A program made the translations under genes and the position numbers. From Priapulus caudatus (Eukaryota > Priapulida > Priapulimorpha > Priapulimorphida > Priapulidae): 24,567 nucleotides of DNA. This document shows positions 6,901 to 23,805 of the stretch, in pieces. Below the pieces are notes generated by a model. That model searched no databases. It was not told where the DNA came from and saw only the letters and a program-made list of their open reading frames with translations. The stretch covers positions 86,210-110,776 of the forward strand of contig NW_014577503.1 in NCBI RefSeq assembly GCF_000485595.1. Direction: 5' to 3'. How positions within the stretch are numbered: the stretch's first letter is position 1; the number at the start of each line of letters is the position of its first letter.

Positions 6901-8558
6901 GATTTTTACAAAATGTGCAACTATTCATTCATATCTAGACGGTGCACACAGAATCACTACGAATGTTACCAAAAGTTGTCCGATCATAAACGATTACCTC
7001 TGTCCACTCAGAGGTCATCCACTCCAGACCCTCACATGGTCCAGCATCGCACGTCCTGTTGGTGGATGGCATATGGCTCTCGTCACAGTTATCCTCTGGT
7101 AAGGTGTCATTGCTGCCAGGAGCATGACAGGTGAGAGTGCGTGTTTGCTCACCCTTACCACACATCTTGTCACACTATATAATGGAAATATTTTTACAGT
7201 GATACTTACATTGCCTATGACAAATATTGGCCTCTACCACTTATTGTTTCAACCAAAATAAATAAAATAAAAGGAATTGAACATATATTTACATAAATTA
7301 GGAATGTTCAATATTTACTTTATATTATTCACAGTGTCGGATTTCATACACAATTTAGCTTCTGGAAATGAGCATAATTAATAATATATGCAAAGAAAAT
7401 CTAGTGCCAATGATACATAACACACCAGTAAGTATAACACCCACAGCATCACATCTACTGTTTTACCATGAATAAGAGCATCATTTAGAAGACTTACAGG
7501 GCCCCATTTGCTGGCTTGCCAGTGTGGGCACATTTCATCCACATTGCACTCCTGTTTGTATGTAGGTTTCTCACCATCTGCATCAACGCACTGTTGTTCT
7601 AGAACCTGCAATTAACACAGCATTAACAGAGTTCAATGTTATGATGCTCAGCACATTTGAGTAACATATACAAAAGGGAGACAAGCTACAATTGGTAACA
7701 AATGCCAACAATTGAAGTTAACCAGCACCTAATTATTCATTTTCATATTTAATTCAAAATTTGAACAACGGGCTGAAGCAATTTCTGCCTCGTCGATTGA
7801 CTGTCAACACAGTTATGGCCAATGACACAATATGCACAAATATTCACACAACATGTGCATACCTGTGACACTATGCCATGCTTCGCCTGCTGCTGGCAGT
7901 ACACAATGCGGAATTGCAGCCCTCCTCCGCATGGATTACTGCACTCCTCCCATTCGCCCAGATACCAACTGCAAAATAAAGAAACAGCTTGAACTGCTGT
8001 GCAAGCCGTAAAGGTAGACACGGCCAGATTTATAGGAAAACGTCAACAATCCACACGTTACTCCTGGCGTAACATGTTACTTCACACTCCTTTAGGGAGC
8101 TACGGATGTCCAAAACACATCATCATATCTTGTCTACCTCCCTGTGCAGTTATACCTGGCAGGGCAGGCCTGAGTGTGGCAGGATTGCTCAGTAGGTGGT
8201 CGAAGCAGCGGGTTGCATAAGACCTCGCTAACGGTGTCATAGCCGATTGTCCTTGCGCAATACACGGGTCTCGTTTGAATGCCTGAAACACACGTGACAA
8301 CCATATTCAGTCCAAATCTTGACATGGCTAATTCAAATTATGCGTAGAGAGTAGAGGGACGAGATTTACCTATTTAAATCACATTACTTTAGGTGTGTTG
8401 TAAACAGAGGTATCTCTGGATGATTATAGTCACTATTAATATTGACATTGATCAAATGATCGACTAAATCTGCAAATGAAGCAAAAGAATATATATCTTC
8501 ATAAAAGCATTAATGTGATGATTATTTAGTTCTTCATTATTATTATTATTATTATTAT

Positions 8559-8590
<32 letters not shown>

Positions 8591-11500
8591 TTATTATTAT
8601 TATTATTATTATTATTAAACAAGATCAAAAGATAATGAATCAATGTATTCATTGCTTACCTCCGCCACAGGTCTGACTGCATTCTCCCCAACCATCATAT
8701 ATCCAAGCATACGAATCTGGATCTGCCATTGTCACTCCAAGTGGTATCGAATATTCGTATATCACACCAGGATTGGCTTCTTGTAGTAACAGCTGAAAAT
8801 GTTACAACATAGTTTGCTAGCTAAAGTATAGTAACAAAATCACTACCATGACTAAACTTTAGCAAATAGGGCAAATATTGCTGTTGAAATAATAGTCACA
8901 CTGACCAGAAATCGCTTCTCCATCGTCATAATTTTTTCATATAATAGAAATGACTATAAAAGCAAAATTTCTAATAACTGATTATACTAATTAATAAATT
9001 TTGCAATTACTGAAATAATTCAATGAGAAATAGTTTACCTGTACATATGCATCAATCCATAATAAGCATTTCATTACACCACCTCACATACTCATGTACA
9101 CACGCTTGGACACATGTAGGTTATGCAGATGGGGTCGTTGTCGTATCAGGTACTACAGATATGTAACCGAGGTAGTTTTAGGTTGTTTAGTATTATGTTT
9201 ATATTTTTATATGAGGTATGTTTAGGGTTAGGGTTAGGGTTAGGGTTAGGGCTAGGGCTAGGGTTAGGGTTAGGGTTAGGGCTAGGGCTAGGGCTAGGGC
9301 TAGGGTTAGGGTTAGGGTTAGGGTTAGGGTTAGGGTACACTTCTGTAGTACAAGTCTGGTACACTTTGTGTATACATATATCTGTAGTACCTGATACGAC
9401 AACGACCCCATCTGCGTAGGTTATGCCTCATACCACAATGAAGAGAGTCTCGGTGGTTGGTCCCAGTGCATCAAGCTGTTCTGGTGCATGGAAACCATGA
9501 GGCGTGCGTTTATAGTAAAATGTTGTGCCAGCAATTTGCATGTCCTTTGAACTGTCTATCCTCCACTCTCCATTGAGGTAATATGTTCCATGGATGTCCC
9601 GTATTGCTAGACATAACAGAATATTAGATAAAGTCGTGTTTTCCAACTAGAAAGCTCCCAAGAAATCCTTATCACGCGTACAGCTCAAAACATTTTCCTG
9701 AAACACCAATACGTAATGGCATATTTGTTGTTGAAATTAAAAACGCTTAAAAGGAAACTTTTAAAGCACAGGATAAACAACACAGCATCACAGCGATATA
9801 GATATCGGAGCGAGATAAGCAATGTGGTGTGCACTCGTCTACTAGACTGCATGCTTTCCTAATGTACTGAAAACCAAAATGTCAAAAACCTGGATGTTTA
9901 CAAAACAGTACTGCCTTTAATTTCATCAACATTTAAGGGTGTCTGAAAATAGTTAACCCATTGGCCACGAAGAGGAGTATACTTTACGTTCTGGCGCTCC
10001 AATTGTTGCTAGTTCACCTTGTGATCCCACAGCATAATTAATCTCTATACATTATAAAATGTTATACTTTATACATAATAGAATAATATAAATTACAATA
10101 ATATAGAGGACACTAGACACACCACCCACACTAGCTCTAATTCAAGATTTAAAAACACAACCACAGTATATTTCATACCAAGGAAATTATTTGTTGCTTT
10201 TCTCTCTCTAAGGTGAATGTTAGTGGCTCCTCCAGGAATGATAATCATGTCATTGTATCCTGAACACGACCAAACAAATGTTACCTTCAGTATACACATG
10301 ATAGCATCTAAAGTATTAGTTTAAATTTTATTATAGCTTATTAACCTCATATTTACGTTGTGTAACATATGATCATAGACAATTCTGATTTATTTTAACT
10401 AGGCAAATTTCCCATATTTTGCCAGATGAGATTCACGATTATACCATGTTTTAATGACATTCATAGATCAAGCCGTTCAAGAAGTAATATACGTATTTAT
10501 AAATGTTATGCCAATGCACATATGTCATACAGGTTTAGATACATTTAAAAATACATCCCAAACTTCTTGTCTAGTGACAAAGGTTTTTGCTCTTTTTATC
10601 CGATTCCTTGTCAAATGAATACTTGTAAGTAATGTAGATTTGCATTTACCAGTCTGTAGGTTTGATATGTCAAACAAGCCTTCCACAGTCTTACAAGTAC
10701 TGCCATCACCACCACACTCTCTGCACTTGTCTTCTTTGGCACTGGAACCTAACAGCTTATCACAGCCTACAGGCTAGAAAAGAAACAATAAGCCAGTAAT
10801 AAGAACCACAGATTTCTGCTGTGCTAGTGTTACATTTTCATCTACAAAACACACATAGTAAACAGCCTAAGGTTGCACTTGTGTGAAAAAATGTGCCAAA
10901 AATACTGAAGGAAGAAAATGGTAGTATGGACAGAGACAGGAAAAATACGCGAATAAAAATAAGTGAGATATAAGAAAAGGGGAAGGAAAAGAAAGAACAA
11001 GAGGAGAGATAGAAATGAAAAAGGAGAGGCCCAGCAAACAAAAGAATGAATAACGAAAGAAAGAGCGGGACAGTGAGACTGAAAGAAGGGAAGAGGATAT
11101 TTGATCAGTCATTGCTAACATGCCATAAAACATTTTCGTTGCTATCGACCAAGAAAATTCTGTGCACCCTGATGCTGCAATGTCCCCGTGCATCTTAAGT
11201 TATCTTAATGTTATTTTAGTTAATATATTTTATATTATTTAACATATATAATATATATGGTGTGTAAGCCCATTCAGTTTTCCAGAGAATTTCATTCATT
11301 TCATTCTATGTAGCAATGGCAATGCTATTCATTGTTACTACTGGTATTATCACATACAAAGATACACTTTGCAGCATTTAATAGCTACGCAATAGAAAAA
11401 ATATAGCGTATGTGCAGATTTTTAACACAAATGACTTCCCATCAACAAGTTTAACGCAGTGAATTCCTAAATTTTCACTTATATGCACCATACTTTAGGT

Positions 11501-14500
11501 TACATAAATAGATGCTTTGTTTTTGATATCATGTTGAACCCTTAGCGTAAACGCCCAACTCTAACGCCCAACTCTAACGATATTTCAAGACTTCAAGCAG
11601 GATCTAGTTACTGGCAAATACACGCAGTATATTTTGATATTTTTGCCACATTCCGTTGGCTGTGGAAATTACAATCTGGTGTTGATTAGACACACAGACA
11701 GTATCTACAAAAACGTTGACAGGCTTAGTAATGTATATTGAGCATGCTGTCTGTTTTTGTCTCAAGGATTACAGAACTGTTGAGGGGCCTTCATGAAAAT
11801 TTACTAGGAATAAAAATTTACTAGAAGTTTGTGTAGCGACTGGAAAATGTGAAAAAAGGAGGGAACATGTCGCTTAGATCAAACAGCTACAATTTAGTGA
11901 GGGGACCACTTTATTGTTTTAATCACTTATTTATACAAACACATCAGAGACAGATGCTGTTATAAATGTCAAAATCAATATCAATTATAAATTTTTGTGA
12001 ATGTATATTATGTTGATCATACCCGACATATTCCATTCACACAGATATCGGTTGATTCAGCATTGCATCGTGTTCCATCTACGGCTGCTGCAAATTTGTA
12101 GTAGAACTTTTCTGTTCTCGGCCTACAATTTAAATCACACTCGGAGAGAGCTGCAACACAAAAATGTAATTATGCTTTAGTAACCCATATCATATTTTCA
12201 TCACACGCAACAAAAATTTATTGCCATCCGGACATCAATGAGCTGTTAACTGCATATTTCTGAAAAAACTGACATTTTGCAATCATTCCTCAGCAAAATT
12301 TTGTTGACGGTAAATAATTATGAATAGCACGCTCTAAAAAGATACATGATAATTTATCTACCGGAAGATTGCTCATTACAGACTGCACGCTTCTCAGCAT
12401 TACATGCTAGCAGCTGGTGAGCAGCGAGGAACCCAGGTGGCACGATCCCAGGGAATTCTGAATGCCACAAGAGCCTACACAACTTCACATTCCGCTGATC
12501 ATGATATGACCACCAAACCCAGTGCAATTTGCTTCAAGGCAAACGCAAATAATTAAGGCGTAGCCCAGTGTGAAGAAACAGAAAACAAGATAGACGAAGA
12601 TGAACTGGCAGAAATTTGATACAGATGACGTGCAAGGAAATCTAAAAAGTACTTTCATTTCTACACTTCATTCCCACTGGTGATCTTGTTTGAACCCTAT
12701 TAAAGGCTCACAATGCGCATCCAAACACTAATTTCTCCAGTACTAGACTAGCAATAACTTCGTGTCATGCATAATCACACTACCTTATGACAAAATAAAC
12801 TCTAGTTGCTCCCATTTCACTGCGCGTTTGCTTAAAACCCACAAGAAAGAGGTGAGAAAACTGGCATTCTGGCGCAAACGCCGACTGTTTGCTAAACAAA
12901 ATAGCCTCGAAGTGGTGACGTGACGTCACATGTTTTTATCTTTGCTGCGCCCGTACCGCTGTACCGCAGCACCGCTGTACCGCTGCACGGTTGCTTGGGG
13001 ATTGGGGAAACTGTCAACAACGTCGGAGAATTTCAACAACATTGGAGGTATTTTCAAAATACCTTTTATAAGACAACGTGCAGTGAAATGGGAGGAACTA
13101 GAGTTTATTTTGTCATAAGGTAGTGTGATTATGCATGCCACGAAGTATTTGCTGGTCTACTACTGGAGTAATTAGCGTTTGGATGCGCATTGTGAGCCTT
13201 TAACCAACATATATTACACATCTCCTGGTAGGTTTTGCTGCCTTTGCTGATCGGAGTCATTGTCATGAGAGAGCTTATAGGGTATCTAATCCTCCTTATA
13301 TATAGCTTAGTTAACTAGCTTAAACTTAGATGAGTCAGTAATATTTAAATTTGCTAAGACTGCTTATGAAACTTGGTTAGTGTCACACACATGAGGGCTG
13401 TTACAATGAGATCTAACATCTTGATTACAACCTATTTATTGCCAGAGTTGGGCCTAGGTCAAGTAGAAAAATTACGTAAAGAATGGTGCTTGCTGGCACA
13501 ACCTTTAAATTTAATTAATTGAAATTTAAAAGATGTTGACACATGCAGTACAACACGCAATTTTGTACCAATAAACCTATTGCGGGATCAGTCATGAATA
13601 GATTAGAAATGGAAATGAAGAAATTACATGGCAGTGTGACTTGTATTTTCAAACTTCGGGCATATATGTGTAGCCTTTAATTACCTATATTTATTTCCAA
13701 AACATAAATACGTTTGCTTATACAATGTATGCAGACCATGTCCTAGCGATTCGTTACTCTGGTGAGACTGCAGTGCATGCTTTGACGTGCATACCTATTG
13801 CCAAATCAGAGAAAACAACATGACAGCAAATGCCAGTGAATTAGATTTACACATACCATTTGCATAGGGAATCCACTCATACGTTTGGTTCTGGAAAGGT
13901 GTGCTGTCATATTTGGCACATTGCTCGTCCCTAAAGTCTTTAGAGCCTGAAGGACAATCCTACAAAGAGGCAAATGCAATAATAAACTAAAAATGTCAAT
14001 GCAATGTTATTCCTACACGTTTTATTTAAATGAACAAACTCTCAACATTTGTCTACCTAGACATGCAACAAAAACATGCAACAAACTAAGGACAACTAAA
14101 CAAAGGAAGAAACTTCTAATTGCATGTACGGGCACAATGAGTACATTATTTAATTATCCTGCTCTAAAATGTGATGTGTAAGAGCATGACAAATAATACC
14201 AGCCTAGAAATAAGATCCAGTAAACGTGTCGGAACATACTAGGATATATAGAAGACCCACATCAGACAGTTGTCAACTGTCTTAATAATGTTTAATCTTG
14301 GTTTTGGCCCAAAATTAAATTTGTGAGACAACATTCAATTTGCAACATTCAAATTGCAACTTTCTATTCCCACTCTACAAAGATGTCGTGACATCTGCAA
14401 TATTCCTTGAATTATGATGCGTACAATTGTGAGTTTTACAGTTTCTTTTTCAAGACTGAGATTCAATCAGGGTACAATTTATTATTCATAGATGACTTTA

Positions 14501-16830
14501 CTGTGATTTGCCATAGCTACACCTTCAACGTTACTACTCATTTGCTTTGAAAACTGCTCACCTGAATTTGACAGGACTTGTAAATTTTACTGGCTCCTGT
14601 GCAGTCAGCACTTCCATCTGATCTGAAATAACAGATTAAAACCATGTAGCAATGACAGACTGGCAATAACAGCACAGACGTGTAAAGGTGGGGTAATAGA
14701 CAAGTTCCATGTTCGATTAAACCTGTATTAACATGAACTACAAATCAATAACTAAGCCATCGATGTGACTGTTTTTGAAACAGCCATGCAAGAGAATTCA
14801 ACATTTTGGCAAGATACTGCAGGTTAATTTCGATAGCAAGGCCAAGCTTATGGAAACACATGCGAGAAATAGAAACTTATTACAGGAATGTAAAAAGACA
14901 TTTTTTAACTATCTATAATCTTCTTTAGCATTCTCAACAGGTTCTTATTCGCCGTGTGTTTTAGGGTCTAATTACTCAGTTATCCAACAATGGGCAAGAT
15001 AATTTGATTGTATCTTAAATCGCCCCCACGATTTTCACAACGAGCATTAGAAGCATGTAATATCAAGCCACAATGGCCACGTCCGAATGCCAGCATCAGA
15101 TATCCACAGAATTGTTATAGGCTACAATTCAGATAGACGCAAAGAAATATTATATCTGTTTAATCACTCATTTTGTTCTGATATATCAATTGGTTATATC
15201 AAATGATGCCTGTCTAGTGAGTTTTCTTCGTTACTGGGTAACATAGAAACAAAAATAGAACTCCTAAAATAACAAACATGAGTATTCAATGCCAATGGCA
15301 GCTCATCATGATATGTATAAAAAACGAAGTTGTAAGTAACAAAACAGTGCGTTGGTCTTACTATGCCAGCAAGTCCCAGCTATTTAGGTAGGATAGCTCC
15401 TGTCATCATTATATGGATCGTAACAGGCAAACATTACAATCAACATTTCTGCATAATGCAATACAAGGTCATTATTCATTAAGTGAAATATTGCCAATGA
15501 CAATATATTGAGATACCATCAATATTAATTACATTATTAACAATATAATCAAGACCATCATAATCGACACAATATATCTATAAGTATAGGGCTATTCATA
15601 ATATCCCTATACTATGATGCTCCTCGTATAATCACTGATTCAAAGTAACAGACTTAAATTGATTACGTCACGAATTTTCTATGGTAAAATTTGTAAAATT
15701 TTTGTTGCCATTTTTTTACATTAAAAGTAAGAAGTTAAGAACTAACGGGACTAAACGTATCGTCAAATTCTTACCTGATAAGATTGTTTCTCAACTAGTT
15801 AAAAATCCAAAAAACTTGGACGATTTCATATTGTGTTCCTAACATAAATTGCTTGTTATGGGCTATGTATGAGTCACGAGTGTATGTTCACATCAAACAA
15901 TATAGTAAAATAAGAAGTATAATGCAGCAATTTAACCATAAAAAGTTAACAGAATTACTTTGACGATACGGCGACGTTATCACTTTAATAATAACTAATG
16001 GTCACTATCAGAAATGCACTAACTAGTGTCAAACGCATAGATGCGGATGTAGATATAGATCTTGAACAACAGCAAAACATAGCTTGTTATCTAGAGCGCA
16101 ATAGAAAATGCATAGTATGGGTATTATCAGGAGTAGATAATAGGGAATTATATACTATTAATTCCGTATTATCTACTCCTGGTATTATGTAGATACAATA
16201 ATATATAACCCAAACACAGCCTGGGTAGGTGTTCCCCTACCCCCGTGTTTGGGTTACATTATTGTATCTAGGGTATCATGGAGATAGTGGAGAAGGCTCT
16301 GGAGAGATCAATACATGTATAACACATGTCAGCTTGCTAAGTAGAAGACAACTAGACGAATTAGTGGCAGTCACGACTCTGGTTGCTATATGATGGTACC
16401 ATCGTGTATATCGAAATAAAAAACCGCACCATGTGAATAACGTTTTAGGCATTTCCTTCTGTCTACTAACACACCCACCCATCAGGTGTGATGCTAAAAA
16501 AAGAATATACACTAATTGTCACTATTAATAGTTTTATGAACGGTTTCACTCACCTTGCATTTACAGGTACATACTACATACTAGGGCACCAGCCAGATTA
16601 ATCTGAATATCACCTGAGAACGCGTTGATAGCGAAGACTTACCTGGTCGATAAACATTTTCGATGGTGATACGTGATTCCACCACCACATGATCGCGAGC
16701 ATGGTGACTCCCCGGACCAAGGACCCCATGCCCCGGAGTCCGGCCCGCTCCTATCCACAATATACTCCCTCGTTAGTAAACGCGGGTCCGGTGACCGCTT
16801 CGTTCGCACATGTGAAGCGAGATGTGTATC
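750..16830 (-). CDS. PAPLN: papilin-like secreted matrix glycoprotein, 24 exons, both ends missing
   Basis: Exons in transcript order: 16830-16643, 14622-14562, 13959-13857, 12150-12023, 10773-10650, 10259-10179, 9606-9434, 8792-8660, 8282-8138, 7968-7863, 7605-7498, 7174-6998, 6588-6415, 5991-5806, 5515-5374, 5156-5027, 4805-4682, 4478-4035, 3760-3545, 3399-3201, 2381-2199, 2033-1651, 1420-1201, 929-750. All junctions are AG/GT and all phases agree, giving about 1,369 residues. Domains: linker 1-34, TSR1 35-86, ADAMTS Cys-rich about 84-200, spacer about 201-320, TSR2-7 about 322-676, nine GCC cassettes about 681-1300 separated by mucin-like stretches (about 800-981 and 1108-1240), Kunitz about 1311-1361. 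Papilins are secreted basement-membrane proteins; the ADAMTS-like modules carry no protease domain. The signal-peptide exon and the 3' end are not seen. ADAMTS-like proteins are the main alternative, but the GCC cassettes plus Kunitz domain favour papilin. Confidence 0.93.
1126..1172. repeat. near-perfect hairpin with CAGGGGT terminus (hairpin family copy 1)
   Basis: The arm ATATCAGGGGTTAATAATGA at 1126-1145, continuing to 1148, pairs with 1150-1172 at 21 of 23 positions with a one-base centre. It lies 28 nt into the intron after exon 23. The terminal motif is shared with hairpins at 16121-16190 and 17966-18029. Confidence 0.8.
1201..1420 (-). CDS. PAPLN: papilin exon 23: GCC cassettes 8 and 9
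   Basis: It encodes CSVSQWGCCMDGVRPAIGP and CRNSLFGCCEDGMNEAQGP, followed by MTTTAAAT. The donor is GTATGT after 1201. The acceptor GCAAACAG at 1421 has a poor pyrimidine tract but is the only one giving phase 0 with exon 22. The frame also stays open for some distance upstream, so the 5' boundary is less certain than the cassettes. Confidence 0.86.
1651..2033 (-). CDS. PAPLN: papilin exon 22: second mucin-like stretch with 14-residue repeats
   Basis: The acceptor is AATCACAG and the donor GTGAGC. It encodes 128 codons without Cys, dominated by Thr, Glu, Met and Val. A 42-nt (14-codon) unit built on TGTEGMATATVQMT recurs about five times across 1769-1979. Several NVT sequons are present. It acts as a repeat-expandable, probably O-glycosylated spacer between cassettes 7 and 8. 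It starts in phase 1 and ends in phase 0. Confidence 0.88.
2199..2381 (-). CDS. PAPLN: papilin exon 21: linker and GCC cassette 7
   Basis: The acceptor is TGCTCAG and the donor GTAAGA. It encodes a Gly/Asp-rich linker with two Cys (GSAMGCIGLDEAGSGCIPD), then CEESEFGCCPDGITIAL and ending ENCPI. The tail of this cassette lacks the usual AxGP residues, so it is one of the more diverged copies. It is phase 1 at both ends. Confidence 0.88.
2394..3180. other. intron between exons 20 and 21 with tandem repeats
   Basis: No coding sequence seen. It contains two tandem blocks: an approximately 58-bp unit repeated twice at 2757-2870 (shared core ACTGTCACCTCTA), and 30-bp units at 3061-3142. A related TTTTCAAGGAC stretch at 2700-2726 suggests both TTCAAGGAC tracts belong to one dispersed repeat. 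Confidence 0.65.
3061..3142. repeat. 30-bp tandem repeat, TTCAAGGACTTTTCAAGGAC core
   Basis: Nearly three copies with an exact 30-bp period start at 3061, 3091 and 3121, each with TCCTCTCAAA between TTCAAGGAC pairs. Two partial related copies lie at 3022-3040 and 2700-2726. It lies inside an intron of the papilin gene. Confidence 0.8.
3201..3399 (-). CDS. PAPLN: papilin exon 20: GCC cassettes 5 and 6
   Basis: The acceptor is TTTAAAG. It encodes CIETPYGCCPDGVTAAASHD and, further on, CASTAFGCCLDNISAAAGP. Two donors give the same phase: GTACGT after 3201 (used here) and GTGGGT after 3213. They differ by four residues, GGFI/S versus none. Reading through both reaches a stop about 11 codons on, so an unspliced short isoform would end here. 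Confidence 0.88.
3545..3760 (-). CDS. PAPLN: papilin exon 19: mucin-like stretch continued
   Basis: The acceptor is CACACAG and the donor GTATAT. It is a 72-codon phase 0-0 exon with no Cys. It is rich in Thr, Val, Ser and Met and carries a repeated DTMVT motif (EPDTMVTKMTDTDTMVTQVT). The exon is supported mainly by its open frame, its Thr-rich composition and phase continuity with exons 18 and 20. Confidence 0.82.
3800..4034. other. intron between exons 18 and 19, no feature
   Basis: AT-rich intronic DNA between the two mucin-like exons. No repeat or coding signal noticed. Confidence 0.5.
4035..4478 (-). CDS. PAPLN: papilin exon 18: GCC cassette 4 and first mucin-like stretch
   Basis: The acceptor is GCCTGTAG and the donor GTGATC. 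This is a 148-codon phase 0-0 exon. It opens with GDEGEGC (end of cassette 3), then CETSSYGCCADGVTAASGP (cassette 4), then about 100 residues rich in Thr, Ser, Glu and Met. The stretch includes three copies of an 8-residue unit, TETPVDMS, in a 24-nt period near 4224-4297. The composition suggests an extended, heavily O-glycosylated spacer. It also contains NDT and NMT sequons. Confidence 0.88.
4682..4805 (-). CDS. PAPLN: papilin exon 17: GCC cassette 2 end and cassette 3 start
   Basis: The acceptor is AATGTAG and the donor GTACTG. It encodes YGCCMDGITAAAGPFKKGC, then CNESRFGCCPDGITPAK. Joined to exon 16 it completes CNETAYGCC. The shared xxAAxGPxxxGC tail marks the canonical cassette. It ends in phase 0. 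Confidence 0.9.
5027..5156 (-). CDS. PAPLN: papilin exon 16: GCC cassette 1 and start of cassette 2
   Basis: The acceptor is ATTGTAG and the donor GTATGT. It encodes DVLMPVEGCHKSKFGCCEDG, then VTPAKPNRENC, then GIPCNETA. The C-x4-F-G-C-C-x-D-G motif starts the cassette series typical of papilin. It ends two bases into a codon completed by exon 17, so cassette 2 spans the junction. Confidence 0.88.
5374..5515 (-). CDS. PAPLN: papilin exon 15: TSR7 body
   Basis: The acceptor is TTCTGCAG. It encodes CSVPCGGGVRKREVMCLSDG, then CDPNDRPFDNEPCNQNACDE. This completes TSR7, the last thrombospondin repeat. The proposed donor at 5373 is GTTGAT, a weak match. It is chosen because its phase (1) joins exon 16 in frame and the reading frame then meets a stop almost at once. 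Confidence 0.88.
5806..5991 (-). CDS. PAPLN: papilin exon 14: TSR6 body and TSR7 start
   Basis: The acceptor is GCTTCAG and the donor GTACGG. This is a 62-codon phase 0-0 exon: CSGTCGKGVQTRHVMCVAAS, then DCMNEPCE and AVWFTGPWAL. CSGTCG keeps the O-fucosylation consensus. It has the same design as the two preceding exons, each beginning at the first Cys of a TSR. Confidence 0.92.
5992..6414. other. intron between exons 13 and 14, no feature
   Basis: AT-rich intronic sequence with a short poly-T run near 6221-6230. No coding similarity or repeat structure noticed. Confidence 0.5.
6415..6588 (-). CDS. PAPLN: papilin exon 13: TSR5 body and TSR6 start
   Basis: The acceptor is TACTGCAG and the donor GTAAGT. 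This is a 58-codon phase 0-0 exon: CDACGQTKQSRDVICVSKKG, then CPVMSPKCE and AAWHMSEWST. The first loop, CDAC, is one residue shorter than the usual CxxxC, so TSR5 is a divergent repeat. The upstream intron holds a 150-bp tandem duplication. Confidence 0.91.
6627..6915. repeat. 150-bp tandem duplication in intron
   Basis: The segment starting GTAATGGTTCTTTCAAAAGA at 6627 recurs at 6777, an offset of exactly 150 bp. About 138 bp match per copy up to ACAAAATG. The copies differ by a few substitutions and small indels (for example, TCAA is missing from the second copy). It lies in the intron between exons 12 and 13. Confidence 0.88.
6998..7174 (-). CDS. PAPLN: papilin exon 12: TSR4 body and TSR5 start
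   Basis: The acceptor is TATATAG and the donor GTAATC. This is a 59-codon phase 0-0 exon. It opens at CDKMCGKGEQTRTLTC, closes TSR4 with CDAGPCE, and starts TSR5 with GLEWMTSEWTE. It contains NDT and NRT sequons. CDKMC lacks the O-fucose acceptor residue. Confidence 0.92.
7498..7605 (-). CDS. PAPLN: papilin exon 11: TSR3 end and TSR4 start
   Basis: The acceptor is ATTGCAG and the donor GTAAGT. It encodes VLEQQCVDADGEKPTYKQEC, NVDEMCP and then HWQASKWGP. The last part begins TSR4, with the intron placed exactly before its first Cys. It is phase 0 at both ends. Confidence 0.92.
7863..7968 (-). CDS. PAPLN: papilin exon 10: TSR3 first half
   Basis: The acceptor is TTTTGCAG and the donor GTATGC. 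It encodes WYLGEWEECSNPCGGGLQ, then FRIVYCQQQAKHG. This is the opening of TSR3. The CSNPC sequence has Pro where POFUT2 would need Ser or Thr. It ends in phase 0. Confidence 0.92.
8138..8282 (-). CDS. PAPLN: papilin exon 9: TSR2 body, two candidate donors
   Basis: The acceptor is TTTCAG at 8283-8288. It encodes GIQTRPVYCARTIGYDTVSE, a Cys-bearing middle, and EQSCHTQACPA, a complete TSR2. Two donors 18 nt apart keep the same phase: GTAGAC after 8138, used for this span, and GTATAA after 8156. The longer form adds six residues with an NCT sequon. Both join exon 10 in frame. Confidence 0.88.
8535..8617. repeat. compound trinucleotide repeat (ATT)n(ACT)n(TTA)n
   Basis: A run of ATT units is followed by about ten ACT units and another run of TTA/ATT units. 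It lies in the intron between exons 8 and 9, roughly 40 nt downstream of the exon 8 donor. Confidence 0.92.
8660..8792 (-). CDS. PAPLN: papilin exon 8: spacer end and start of TSR2
   Basis: The acceptor is TTTTCAG and the donor GTAAGC. It encodes LLLQEANPGVIYEYSIPLG, then YAWIYDGWGECSQTCGG. The Q-x-x-NPG-x-x-YEY-x-x-P motif ends the ADAMTS spacer, and the W-x4-W-x-x-CSxTCGG segment opens TSR2 with an O-fucosylation consensus. It ends in phase 1. A compound trinucleotide repeat lies about 40 nt into the downstream intron. Confidence 0.92.
9125..9415. mobile_element. 291-bp TIR element with internal telomere-type repeats, copy 1
   Basis: The terminal inverted repeats start GCAGATGGGGTCGTTGTCGT and are identical for about 38 bp. 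The element is bounded by the 9-bp direct repeat GTAGGTTAT at 9116-9124 and 9416-9424, a target-site duplication. Inside lie 19 consecutive TTAGGG or CTAGGG hexamers (9222-9335). There is no coding capacity. A 9-bp duplication is common for Mutator-like elements, but the superfamily is inferred only from that. It lies in the intron after papilin exon 7, 18 nt from the donor. A second copy is at 22013-22240. Confidence 0.93.
9222..9335 (+). repeat. 19 telomere-type hexamers (TTAGGG with CTAGGG variants)
   Basis: The order is five TTAGGG, two CTAGGG, three TTAGGG, four CTAGGG, five TTAGGG, without interruption. The blockwise variants suggest internal segmental duplication after insertion or in the source element. 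The tract is contained entirely within the TIR element. Confidence 0.95.
9434..9606 (-). CDS. PAPLN: papilin exon 7: spacer middle
   Basis: The acceptor is GTCTAG at 9607-9612 and the donor GTATGA at 9428-9433. It encodes AIRDIHGTYYLNGEWRIDSS through FYYKRTPHGFHAPEQLDALG and LFIV. YYLNGxW and the aromatic Y-x-R segment are typical of spacer domains. A TIR element sits only 18 nt downstream of the donor (9125-9415), with its target duplication between element and donor. Confidence 0.92.
9613..10172. other. intron between exons 6 and 7, no feature
   Basis: AT-rich intron of papilin. No repeat structure or coding similarity noticed beyond the splice sites. Confidence 0.5.
10179..10259 (-). CDS. 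PAPLN: papilin exon 6: spacer start
   Basis: An 81-base exon between GTTCAG and GTATGA. It encodes GYNDMIIIPGGATNIHLRER and a short continuation. The IPxGATNIxxxE string is the conserved opening of the ADAMTS spacer (beta-sandwich) domain. It is phase 1 at both ends. Confidence 0.92.
10265..10644. other. intron between exons 5 and 6, no feature
   Basis: AT-rich intronic DNA with no recognisable element. Confidence 0.5.
10650..10773 (-). CDS. PAPLN: papilin exon 5: end of Cys-rich region
   Basis: The acceptor is TTCTAG and the donor GTAAAT. It encodes PVGCDKLLGSSAKEDKCREC, then GGDGSTCKTVEGLFD. The VGCDxxLGSxxxxDxCxxCGGDGSxC pattern is the closing motif of the ADAMTS Cys-rich region. It ends in phase 1. 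Confidence 0.93.
10780..12016. other. 1.2-kb intron between exons 4 and 5 with purine-rich tract
   Basis: The plus strand from about 10905 to 11095 is strongly purine-rich (GGAAAAGAAAG-type). Further on, the 11-bp unit CGCCCAACTCTAA is directly repeated near 11549-11578. No coding sequence was found in the rest. Confidence 0.6.
12023..12150 (-). CDS. PAPLN: papilin exon 4: Cys-rich region core
   Basis: The acceptor is TGTTGCAG (12151 onward) and the donor GTATGA. The translation includes SECDLNCRPRTEKFYYKF, VDGTRCN and DICVNGICR. The C-x-L-N-C-R-P, VDGTxC and DxCVxGxCR series is the standard ADAMTS Cys-rich signature. It ends in phase 0 after the CR residues. Confidence 0.93.
12151..13856. 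other. 1.7-kb intron between exons 3 and 4
   Basis: It contains the TTAA-flanked TIR element at 12704-13199. The remaining DNA (12160-12699 and 13204-13850) is AT-rich, with a short palindrome around 13508-13530, and shows no coding similarity. Confidence 0.6.
12704..13199. mobile_element. 496-bp long-TIR element flanked by TTAA
   Basis: The left arm begins AGGCTCACAATGCGCATCCA at 12704 and runs about 130 bp. The right arm is its reverse complement with about 10% mismatch and ends at 13199. Both ends abut TTAA (12700-12703 and 13200-13203), the duplication typical of piggyBac and Kolobok elements. The centre holds a short ACCGCTGTACCGC tandem run (12954-12987) and no transposase. It is probably a non-autonomous foldback-like element in a papilin intron. 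Confidence 0.9.
13857..13959 (-). CDS. PAPLN: papilin exon 3: Cys-rich region start
   Basis: The acceptor is TTTGTAG and the donor GTATGT at 13851-13856. The exon encodes DCPSGSKDFRDEQCAKYD followed by FQNQTYEWIPYAN. The FRxEQC core is a hallmark of the ADAMTS/papilin Cys-rich region directly after TSR1. It contains an NQT N-glycosylation sequon. It starts in phase 0 and ends in phase 1. Confidence 0.92.
13966..14556. other. intron between exons 2 and 3, no feature
   Basis: AT-rich intronic sequence. A plus-strand open frame at 13993-14181 has no recognisable domain and AT-driven composition, so it is not called. Confidence 0.5.
14562..14622 (-). CDS. PAPLN: papilin exon 2: second half of TSR1
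   Basis: A 61-base exon between TTTCAG (14623-14628) and GTGAGC. One base completes the Arg codon left by the previous exon, then it reads SDGSADCTGASKIYKSCQIQ. This is the C-terminal part of TSR1 and matches the papilin/ADAMTSL pattern in which a DG-x-x-DC-x-G segment precedes a KSC motif. It ends in phase 0. Confidence 0.9.
16121..16190. repeat. hairpin with CAGGAGT terminus (hairpin family copy 2)
   Basis: The left arm TATCAGGAGTAGATAATAGG at 16124-16143 continues to about 16153 and pairs with the arm ending ATCTACTCCTGGTATTAT. The stem is about 30 bp with few mismatches. It abuts the next inverted-repeat element directly on its right. Confidence 0.85.
16192..16268. mobile_element. 77-bp palindromic element flanked by TA
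   Basis: The arms GATACAATAAT...AACCCAAACAC and their complement GTGTTTGGGTTACATTATTG continue to TATC and form a stem of about 34 bp closed by GGGTAGG/CTACCC. TA dinucleotides flank both ends (16190-16191 and 16269-16270), which fits a Tc1/mariner-type short MITE, though two bases are weak evidence. Confidence 0.75.
16643..16830 (-). CDS. PAPLN: papilin exon 1 of window: basic linker and start of TSR1
   Basis: The acceptor is TTTCAG at 16831-16836 and the donor is GTAAGT at 16637-16642. The exon starts in phase 0 and ends after two bases of an Arg codon. It encodes a basic linker with VRTKRSPD, where KR could be a proprotein-convertase site, then WGPWSGESPCSRSCGGG, the start of the first thrombospondin type-1 repeat. 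WGPW fits the WxxW C-mannosylation motif and CSRSCG fits the O-fucosylation consensus CxxS/TCG. It is not the first coding exon, because it opens at an acceptor and lacks a signal peptide. Confidence 0.9.
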
Positions 16831-17965: not shown

Positions 17966-18029
17966 ACTCAGGAGTGAATAATAGAGATTTATTCTAGAGA
18001 TAATAAAGATGTATTATTCACTCCTGATA
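17966..18029. repeat. hairpin with CAGGAGT terminus (hairpin family copy 3)
   Basis: The left arm TCAGGAGTGAATAATAGAGA at 17968-17987 pairs with TATTATTCACTCCTGATAT at the right. It has the same design and terminus as the hairpins at 1126-1172 and 16121-16190, while the inner arm sequence differs. Confidence 0.85.
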
Positions 18030-19074
18030 TATATATATATATCTTCTATGATCAGGTCAGCTTTTATCATTTACTCATTATCTGTATAACTATATAGCCA
18101 GGGTACACAAATTAGAGTTAAAAGAGTCCAGCAGATGCTTAACGCCATACACAGTTTACACTAGTGAATACGCGTACTGTAAGCAATAAAAGAAGAGTGT
18201 TATAACGACAAGCACGCTGTGTACTGGTGGTGCCCGTCTCTGGGACCTACCCCTTCTCTTGATGCCCTACATCTGTTTGTTTTCCGCATGTTAAGTTATA
18301 GCAAAACGCTCGGCATGAATCAAGAATGTTCGGCATGTTCAATGAATCAAGTGATGAAAAGGAAAGAAATCAGCAAATCGTGAACTCCACTCAACAGAAA
18401 GATAAAAAGTCGAAGAGAAAAACGTCTAATAACTGAACGCAATAAATCAGAAACATCACAAACAGTAGCCGTTTCTGAAGAGAACGACATTCCTAATTGC
18501 ATTTTGATTACTAGATTGGTGAACAGTAAATATCGAAATAATTGGTGACCACTGACCCGGTACAATGAATATGATAATAGACATATAATCAGGAGATAAT
18601 CAATAGACAAAGGTATTACTAAATAGTAATTAACCAAGTATTATTTCAGCTGATCTGATACTAACTTTCCTTTGCGGATGTAGACACAACGACTACCGAT
18701 TCAACTCTGTTGCTTTCACACGTCAGTCGTCAGCAATATAATGACACTCATTGAGAACGTGCTCACTTTCAGTATCGCTCTCTCATACCAGCGATGCACA
18801 CGGCACCCCTACATATTCAGTAATGAACATGCCCCAAGCGACTTATCTTCTTACTATAATTTGCCGAATGTTGTATGTATGTATGTATGTATGTTAATGA
18901 AAGGCTCCGTCAGTTTTGATCCAAATAGCGCCAAATTCACAGAAGAGATCGATGAATACACGGAACGGGTTCTAAACTTTACTCGGTTGAAAACGGTAAA
19001 AAAGACTTAAAAAGGACACACACAAAAAGGTAAAGATTTGCCTGAAAATAGGGGGCGCTATATCCTTGCCTTGC
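18030..19074. other. intergenic stretch with (GTAT)n, no gene recognised
   Basis: It contains a (GTAT)n microsatellite at 18872-18894 and a lone CAGGAGATAAT segment near 18589 resembling the hairpin terminus. The plus-strand frame at 18741-19010 crosses the microsatellite and has no recognisable domain. Confidence 0.5.
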
Positions 19075-19586: not shown

Positions 19587-20541
19587 TGGCCCTGTCACAC
19601 ATTGACGATTTAGCCAGCGTATGCCGGACGTAAATCAAAAATTTGGTGAATACGCTGGCGTACGTCGAATAAGTTATGGTAAGCTTTGTATAAGTTAAAA
19701 GCACGCTGAAAGCACGCTGAAGCACGCTGAAGCACGCTGGTATACGTCGTAGTACGGCGAGGTCGTCGAAAAATGTTGAGCATGCTCAAAATGTTTCCGA
19801 CGTATGCCAGCGTATGCCCATACGTCCCGGCATACGCGGGCCATAAGTTTGTTAGTAAGTTATTCGATCGTTGACACACGTTTGACCCACGTTACTTGTA
19901 AAGTTACTCAAAGTCGAAATTACGTCGAGATATAATGTCTAGCGTACCCAAAACTTATTTCTAACTTATGAGTAACGTGCTTTGAACCTATGTGTAACTT
20001 ATCTCCAACGCATATTGACGTATTTGACGGTGTTCCGGACCCCACAGACTTACTGAAGCGTGTTTCTAACTTACAGCTACCCGTATAATGGCGTATTGGC
20101 AGCGTTTAGGGGAATTGGTATATAAAAATGGTATTGGGCATGGTAGATTACTGCGACGGTGATGTTGATACACTGCCGATGTCTAGTTGGCGGTTATGAT
20201 TTGAATCGTCGAGCGGAGAGCCTTTTATAGGCTACGACACGTGATCGTCGGCGATCCAGCCTGCGCGCGCGCTATGCATAAGTTAGACATCGTTGGGCAT
20301 AATAGTTGTGAAGCGCCGGCAACACGCTAAGCATTCGTTGTATAAGTTATCTATAAGTTATCGAAACGTTCTATATATAGTTACTAAATAGCGTTATGTA
20401 TGCGTCCAACTCGTTAGACTACGCTTGTATACGCTCAAATTGAAAAAAAAACATCGATAGTTCAGCGTATGCCAGCGTTTTAAGAGAAATTTTGATACGT
20501 CCGGCATACGGCTGGCTAAATCGTCATGTGTGACAGGGCCA
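19587..20541. mobile_element. 955-bp non-autonomous TIR element inside the 59-bp array
   Basis: The left terminus TGGCCCTGTCACACATTGAC and right terminus GTGTGACAGGGCCA are part of about 55-bp imperfect inverted repeats that include GACGATTTAGCCAGC and TATGCCGGACGTA. TGA lies on both sides (19584-19586, 20542-20544), consistent with a 3-bp duplication as in PIF/Harbinger elements, though an AT 2-bp duplication cannot be excluded. The interior is rich in ACGT-type words (GTATGCCAGCGTATGCC, AAGTTAT, AAAGCACGCTG repeats) and has no transposase frame. Confidence 0.85.
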
Positions 20542-22003: not shown

Positions 22004-22012
22004 GTTCCTATG

Positions 22013-22240
22013 GCTTAAGGGTCGTTGTCGTATCAAGGTTACTACAGATATGTACCCGAGGTACATATATGTATACACAAAGTGTACCAGACTTGTATTA
22101 CAGAAGTGTACCGCTAACCGCTAACACTAACCCTAACCCTAACCCTAAACATACCTCATATAAAAATATAAATACTAAACAACCTAAAACTACCTCGGGT
22201 ACATATCTGTAGTACCTGATACGACAACGACCCCATCTGC
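22013..22240. mobile_element. 228-bp TIR element with internal telomere-type repeats, copy 2
   Basis: This is an inverted-orientation copy of the element at 9125-9415. The right terminus GACAACGACCCCATCTGC matches exactly; the left terminus is mutated (GCTTAAGGGTCGTTGTCG). It is bounded by the 9-bp direct repeat GTTCCTATG at 22004-22012 and 22241-22249. Its telomere tract (22113-22149) has only about three intact CCCTAA units plus decayed ones. It retains an extra GTACCTCGGGTACATATCTG segment in the left arm that copy 1 lacks in the corresponding arm. Confidence 0.93.
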
Positions 22241-22249
22241 GTTCCTATG

Positions 22250-22711: not shown

Positions 22712-23805
22712 TGTTCTCCCCAGAGATGTGTAAGTATACAAAGTTTGGTCGCGCTAAAAGGTCAATTAGGGGCCAGAGTTATAGAGCGGAGGGAAATATG
22801 ATGAAGGCAGGGTCAAGGTCAAATAAAGGTTGGCAGTGACACTGTTTCGGTACGCGACACATCCTTCTCCAAAGATGTGTAAGGTATAATACAAAGTTTG
22901 GTCGCGCTAAGTCCAATTAGAGGGCCGAGTTATAGAGTGGAAAGAAAATATAATCACGGTCAAGTCCAATGGTCAGGTCAAATTAAAACGCCACAGTGAC
23001 GATTGTTTTGGTAACACGACAGCACATTCTCGCCCAAGATCTGTAAGTAATAGCCAAGTTTTTGGTAGCGCTAGTCAATAAGGGGCCGAGTTATAGAGGC
23101 AGAAGGGAAATATAATTCAAGGTCAAGGTAAAGGTCAAATAAAGGTCGTAGTGACGTGGTTTTGGTACGCTGAACACACCTTCTGCCCCAAGATGTTAAG
23201 TATAGCCAAGTTTGATGGCGCTAGTCAATTAGGGGCCGAGTTATAGAGCGAGGGAAATATGATCAAGTCAATGTAAAGGTCAAAATTAAAGGTCGTAAGT
23301 GACGCTTGGTTTTAGGTAGCGGCTAGGTCAATTAGGCCGGAGTTTAGAGAGCGGAATGGGAAATATGATCAAAGGTCAAAGTAAAAGTCAAATAAAGTGC
23401 AGTGACCTGGTTTTGGTAGGCGCTGCTGCACGCTTCTCCCGCAAGATGTGTAAAGTATACAAGTTTAGTAGCCGCTAGGTCAATTAGGAGGACGAGTTAG
23501 AAGAGGCGGAAAGGAAATATGATCAAGGTCAAAGGTAAAAGGTCAAATAAAGGTCGCAGTGACCTGGTGTTGTAACGCTGCTTCACCTTCTCCCCAGATG
23601 TGTAAGTATATCCAAGTTTGGGCAGCGCTAGGTCGTTTAGGGGCCGAGTTTAAGAGAGCGGAAGGGAATATGAATCAAGGTCAAAGTAAAAGGTAAATGA
23701 AGGTCGCAGTTGACATGGTTTTAGTACTCTGGCAGCACCTTCTCCCCCAAGATGTGAATAGTAAATACCAATGTTTGGTCAGCGCTAGGTCAACTTAGGG
23801 GGTCT
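22712..23805. repeat. approximately 150-bp tandem array, about eight diverged units
   Basis: TCTCCCC-AAGATGTGTAAG marks unit starts near 22712, 22866, 23028, 23181, 23436, 23589 and 23740. One unit between 23181 and 23436 has lost that marker. Each unit continues with AAGTTTGGT-GCGCTAGGTCAATTAGGGGCCGAGTTATAGAG, GGGAAATATGATCAAGGTCA and CAGTGACCTGGTTTTGGTA. Copies differ mainly by one-base indels. The frame is not conserved, so it is non-coding satellite-like DNA. Confidence 0.92.

Follow-up and report, generated by a model that had tools for sequence, protein, structure and literature searches.

A multicopy transposon family that probably seeds interstitial TTAGGG arrays in the Priapulus caudatus genome

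Interstitial telomeric sequences are commonly interpreted as relics of chromosome fusion or of healed breaks. Some dispersed repeats of C. elegans may contain telomere-like repeats. The window analysed here, a 24,567-nucleotide stretch of the Priapulus caudatus assembly, holds two TTAGGG tracts, each enclosed in a short element with inverted ends, and raises the question of whether such tracts can be seeded by transposition. That interstitial telomeric sequences abound on the chromosome arms of metazoans is called a mystery in one review (PMC9071541). Movement of telomeric repeats by transposition has been proposed earlier (PMC6410037; PMC8621592), and another review lists transposition by mobile elements only as a possible mechanism (PMC6410037). 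The two elements, E1 and E2, and the exon beside E1 have the following features.

9116..9124, no strand: left target-site duplication (TSD) of E1, GTAGGTTAT
9125..9415, plus strand: E1, 291 bp, with the TTAGGG strand on plus; atypical, both ends being of the GCAGATGGGG type
9125..9162, plus strand: left 38-bp terminal inverted repeat of E1
9222..9335, plus strand: array of E1, 19 hexamers (13 TTAGGG, 6 CTAGGG)
9378..9415, minus strand: right 38-bp terminal inverted repeat of E1
9416..9424, no strand: right TSD of E1, GTAGGTTAT
9428..9646, minus strand: reading frame adjoining E1, with a host exon (ADAMTS spacer 1 domain, from Pfam)
22004..22012, no strand: left TSD of E2, GTTCCTATG
22013..22240, minus strand: E2, 228 bp, of typical form, with the GCAGATGGGG end at 22240 and a GCTTAAGGG end at 22013
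22111..22148, minus strand: TTAGGG array of E2, 38 bp, 3 intact and about 3 degenerate units
22241..22249, no strand: right TSD of E2, GTTCCTATG

E2 lies in the orientation opposite to E1. The common ends and subterminal sequence reported in the first-pass annotation are borne out, as 168 positions outside the array align with 3 mismatches, alongside indels of 5, 17 and 2 bp and changes at one end. The array junctions are identical in position in the two elements, as had also been claimed, and the 9-bp direct repeats noted around each are perfect and differ between the two. The 300-bp flanks align with a score no higher than that of shuffled sequences and are thus unrelated. The difference in hexamer number, 19 against 3 intact units, likewise holds; in E1 the units follow the order TTTTTCCTTTCCCCTTTTT, with the variants clustered along the array (runs test, p 0.022). 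The common terminal inverted repeat stands only in part. The inverted repeat of E1 is 38 bp long and perfect, with the motif GCAGATGGGGTCGTTGTCGT exact at both ends; that of E2 is alignable over about 45 bp, the motif being exact at one end only and the other end reading GCTTAAGGGTCG. Reading frames in E1 comprise only the repeat array and short arms, Rfam gives no match, folding of two end stretches is not informative, and a sensitive search finds no further copy within the 24.6-kb window.

In the window's own assembly (385,217,808 bases, 2952 contigs), GCAGATGGGGTCGTTGTCGT has 255 exact matches (138 forward, 117 reverse), and the reversed control has 0. Sixty loci, taken in order of 100 listed places and thus from the start of the contig list rather than by random draw, provide 63 usable anchors, and a copy is counted as complete where a second end lies within 700 bp of the anchor. 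Complete pairs of this family, termed family A, are found at 48 of the 63 anchors, a number in which exact-motif anchoring favours well-kept copies and some anchors, nested or neighbouring within a single locus (L034, L088, L089), are not independent; their median length is 242 bp (n = 48). The remaining 15 anchors have no partner end within 700 bp. Among them, L028 has one hexamer only within the 650 bases read, and L017, L025 (mostly N), L079, L102 and L108 have none. Every locus was located through the end motif or through TTAGGG, which places array-free families and other hexamers outside the sampling.

The second end reads GCTCAAGGGG in 25 of the 48 copies and GCTGAAGGGG in 10, so the two ends of the element usually differ. 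E2 therefore represents the usual form, and E1, whose ends are both of the left type, is the exception. A reading of the GCTTAAGGG end of E2 as damage was rejected, the family sample showing it to be a near-normal second end. The 9-bp TSD is perfect in 29 copies, has at most one mismatch in 35 and more than one in 13. When left and right flanks are swapped between copies, at most one mismatch is seen in 3 of 2256 pairs; chance repeats are rejected on this control and on the reversed-pattern controls, which give 0. The target in the 35 copies with at most one mismatch is NNNANTNNN, with position 4 always A and position 6 always T (35/35), a centre that is lacking from the TSDs of both E1 and E2. 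Twenty-three 40-bp flanks are long enough for comparison, and 251 of their 253 pairs differ. One of the two matching pairs joins the two L089 anchors. The other links L035 to the inner anchor of L034; these lie some 37 kb from each other on contig C23 and may represent a local copy.

Telomeric hexamers are present in all 48 complete copies, with at least 2 consecutive units in 45 and at least 4 in 20. The G-rich strand points away from the GCAGATGGGG end in 46 copies; the two inverted arrays are those of L081 and L088+, the latter a pairing of two neighbouring anchors. The junction, AGGTATGT followed directly by TTAGGG, recurs in 31 copies, the first hexamer begins at base 97 in 21, and the array midpoint falls at 0.52 of element length (sd 0.08, n = 47). 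Genome-wide, the junction GAGGTATGTTTAGGGTTAGGG is found at 604 sites with at most 2 mismatches (reversed control, 0). The arrays span 18 to 291 bp, the longest of which, in L089+, may be composite, and include the variant units TTAGTG and CTAGGG. In the 25 copies with the canonical junction, the left arms share 96.9% mean identity (minimum 90.0%), so the array changes faster than the rest of the element. The clustering of variants in E1, taken with this range of spans, fits array turnover after insertion.

The copies thus have in common their ends, their 9-bp duplications and the junction and orientation of the array, and they are dispersed to different flanks. They have a short inverted-repeat form without coding capacity, a TSD of fixed length and many unrelated sites, as in miniature inverted-repeat transposable elements (MITEs). 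The earlier claim that the tract is mobilised with the element as a unit is upheld by the distinct TSDs and unrelated flanks of E1 and E2 and by the sampled pairs, and a search for further end pairs carrying both TSD and TTAGGG, which the same annotation had put forward as a check, is answered by these counts. E1 and E2 most probably (about 0.9) belong to a multicopy family of non-autonomous DNA transposons that is moved by cut-and-paste and seeds interstitial telomere-type tracts.

Under this reading, an element of about 240 bp with related, non-identical ends (GCAGATGGGGTCGTTGTCGT and GCTCAAGGGGTCGT or GCTGAAGGGGTCGT) would be moved by a transposase supplied in trans, would insert mostly at NNNANTNNN targets with a 9-bp duplication, and would with each insertion seed an interstitial telomeric tract at the new site. 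Slippage or unequal exchange would then lengthen, shorten and diversify the tract. Acquisition of the first array was probably a single event in the ancestor of the family, with either slippage or telomerase acting on a break in the hairpin loop of the element as its possible source. The central position of the array is where a cruciform would place its loop, and a break there, followed by telomerase extension and rejoining, would leave the hexamer with a fixed strand. The proposal that interstitial tracts are seeded by transposition therefore holds for their spread and does not extend to the entry of the first array into the ancestral element.

A second family appears when the arrays themselves are taken as the starting point. 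The genome has 718 starts of arrays with at least 4 perfect units (reversed control, 0), where one array can give more than one start, and 11 arrays of at least 14 perfect units after overlaps are grouped, the one on contig C1 being internal to its contig. The first 45 starts in the list of 718 represent 44 arrays, 3 of which are covered by family A loci (L019, L021, L022); the other 41 were read in 40 loci. Seven of these first 44 listed arrays belong to family A, 11 to a family B, 13 lie between other inverted arms and 13 in neither setting, inverted arms being called where the array lies between arms with a local alignment score of at least 50. That score is reached in 22 of the 41 arrays, against 47 of 2000 positions drawn at random from the window and the 10-kb loci; N makes up about 9% of the letters of the window and the 20 long loci. 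With arrays masked, 34 of the 40 loci have a match in one or more of the others in the set, and some of these matches may run through other dispersed repeats. L051 and L061 have long flanks in common.

The family B junction, TTTGATATGG followed directly by TTAGGG or a close form of it, is found at 2441 sites with at most 2 mismatches (reversed control, 0). Both ends are present in 7 of the 11 family B arrays of the first sample and in 12 of 20 loci fetched by the junction, the remaining 8 of those 20 being without both ends. In the 19 complete copies, the TSD is perfect in 10 and within one mismatch in 14; among these 14, position 4 is A in 12 and position 6 is T in 14. L120 and L121, which have one TSD in common, are probably local copies of each other. 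Relative to the array, the ends keep their sides: the left one reads GCTCATAGGG in 12 of the 19 copies, and the right one GCTGAGAGGG in 14. Families A and B resemble each other in their ends (GC..A..GGGTC) and in their target, and may be served by one transposase. At L032 (about 8300-9015, partly N), a TTAGGG tract beside a family A end encloses an end of family B with its array, an arrangement suggestive of one element inserted into the other.

The share of interstitial arrays that fall within such elements, a further check raised by the first-pass annotation, is at least 18 of the first 44 listed, in two families, so transposition seeds a substantial part of the arrays examined. Beyond families A and B, evidence for transposition of the inverted repeats is weak. 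Among the 14 arrays in this group, a perfect 9-bp duplication is found in L041, L071 has a duplication at shifted boundaries, L048 has one with a single mismatch in repetitive sequence, 8 have 2 to 4 TSD mismatches and 3 are not measurable. The sequence to the right of the array (TTTTTGCATCAT or close) is common to L040, L041, L059, L060, L067 and L074, whose inverted arms differ, as if the array and its right flank were a module common to several families. It is conceivable, with odds clearly below even, that several inverted-repeat families gained TTAGGG separately near their hairpin loops and that these together account for most of the interstitial telomeric DNA in place of fusion or break healing; the weak duplications outside families A and B lower the odds of this reading. 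If true, such separate gains would point to a recurrent route, for example telomerase acting on transposon hairpin breaks.

Among other explanations, the one that survives best is that the array is an ordinary microsatellite that arose by slippage within a MITE, its match to the telomere repeat being fortuitous and telomerase playing no part. MITEs with tandem repeats are known (PMC6947457, in the part cited), and the variant units and variable lengths of the arrays are what slippage would produce. Against it, the same hexamer occurs in family B and between other inverted arms, though these loci were found by way of that hexamer, and the E1 arms show no excess of TTAGGG-like cryptic seeds on the array strand. 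This origin is a serious contender that nevertheless falls short of being the expected one.

An unlikely alternative is that selection keeps the array as a working part that helps transposition or targeting, for example as a G-quadruplex or as a binding site for a Myb-like or telomere-binding protein. Its presence in 48/48 copies, near-fixed orientation and central position are compatible with such a role, as are its recurrence in family B and the alike target choice there. However, the longest run is 1 to 3 units in 26 of the 48 copies, 2 copies have no unit on the G strand, a four-G-run motif finds no match in E2, and retention can be explained by simple descent.

It is highly improbable that telomerase or break repair placed TTAGGG separately at each locus, with the elements as incidental neighbours or landing sites. 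Separate insertion is a documented source of short interstitial telomeric sequences in vertebrates, and in the source cited a transposable element surrounds 6 of the 27 TERC-ITSs of primates and rodents, its authors holding that transposons are not the spreaders (PMC8537989). In families A and B, separate insertion by break repair is contradicted by the recurrence across copies of the junction (31/48), the base-97 offset (21/48) and the orientation (46/48), and by the 604 (A) and 2441 (B) sites with common junctions. That E1 and E2 come from a single segmental duplication, a reading invited by their presence in one 24.6-kb window and named in the first-pass annotation as a refuting condition, is refuted by their unrelated flanks and differing TSDs, as well as by hundreds of copies elsewhere and the near absence of matching flank pairs (2/253), and has a negligible chance of being correct.

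The preferred reading, a MITE family moved in trans, calls for a transposase source. L017 contains a 7.2-kb pair of ends, free of N and with one mismatch in its TSD; it was rejected as an autonomous partner because six scanned reading frames gave no Pfam domain above cut-off, and no autonomous partner came to light. The 9-bp TSD suggests an affinity with Mutator-like elements (MULEs), which, with Mutator-like MITEs, are similarly described as having TSDs of 8-10 bp, inverted ends and non-autonomous copies (PMC5225508; PMC8449440). According to the same description of MULEs, Muta1 has no apparent target preference (PMC5225508), in contrast to the strong NNNANTNNN choice of family A. MULE inverted repeats are typically longer than 100 bp, whereas those here are short and unequal, 38 bp in E1 and about 45 bp in E2. 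Inverted repeats of less than 60 bp are reported for 2 of 14 Aedes MULE families (PMC5225508), so their length is not decisive against a MULE. The element is not filed there, since the target choice and the short unequal ends differ, and the affinity is best taken as a candidate assignment. In viral contigs, a 17-base end motif has 7 matches, none of which extends to the element, and three inner patterns have no match; in prokaryote contigs, a 20-base motif has one match that does not extend.

The link between a short inverted-repeat element and a tandem array is also seen in the GTCY microsatellites of insects and in Xstir of Xenopus, as these are presented in the source cited (PMC6947457). 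Here, in contrast to those MITEs, the array is a telomere-type hexamer and at least two families carry it, so the spread of the elements creates interstitial telomeric sequence. MoTeR retrotransposons similarly make interstitial TTAGGG tracts, as described in part of one account (PMC7367193); they do so by inserting into telomeres and burying the target repeats, whereas the present elements bring the array to ordinary sites as internal cargo. The TERC-ITSs and other break-repair tracts of vertebrates are likewise short TTAGGG tracts far from chromosome ends, described as having been inserted at breaks (PMC8537989), whereas here tract, junctions and element move together. Among the open-licence papers searched, no title or abstract opening describes transposons of one family with TTAGGG arrays inside them. 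At dozens of loci in this genome the element is legible along with its TSDs and array, and a counted share of its interstitial tracts can thus be assigned to transposition. Interstitial tracts should not be taken as evidence of fusion before a check for element ends, and elements with telomere-repeat cargo are a direct source of telomere-like DNA far from chromosome ends.

Judging from sequence, E1 itself appears to sit in an intron of a minus-strand animal gene, read here as papilin-like. Among ten frames scanned against Pfam, ADAMTS spacer 1, TSP1 and Kunitz domains were found, three frames had no match, and the E1 repeat frame had only a low-complexity match. The exon end is read at 9434, which would place the beginning of the E1 TSD at intron base +10, 9 bases inside, and so the splice donor would have been spared.

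Other repeats in the window are of different kinds. An inverted repeat at 12700-13203, with 138-bp arms that are 91% complementary and TTAA at both sides, looks like another MITE, without TTAGGG. A 953-bp element at 19588-20540 has long inverted ends beginning GGCCCTGTCACACA, and no long target duplication is clear there. Three small palindromes, nearly perfect and with ends CAGGRGT.. / ..ACYCCTG, at 1130-1180, 16128-16190 and 17969-18035, are a possible snap-back repeat family. An approximately 150-bp tandem repeat occupies 22714-23801 in roughly 7 copies with many small indels.
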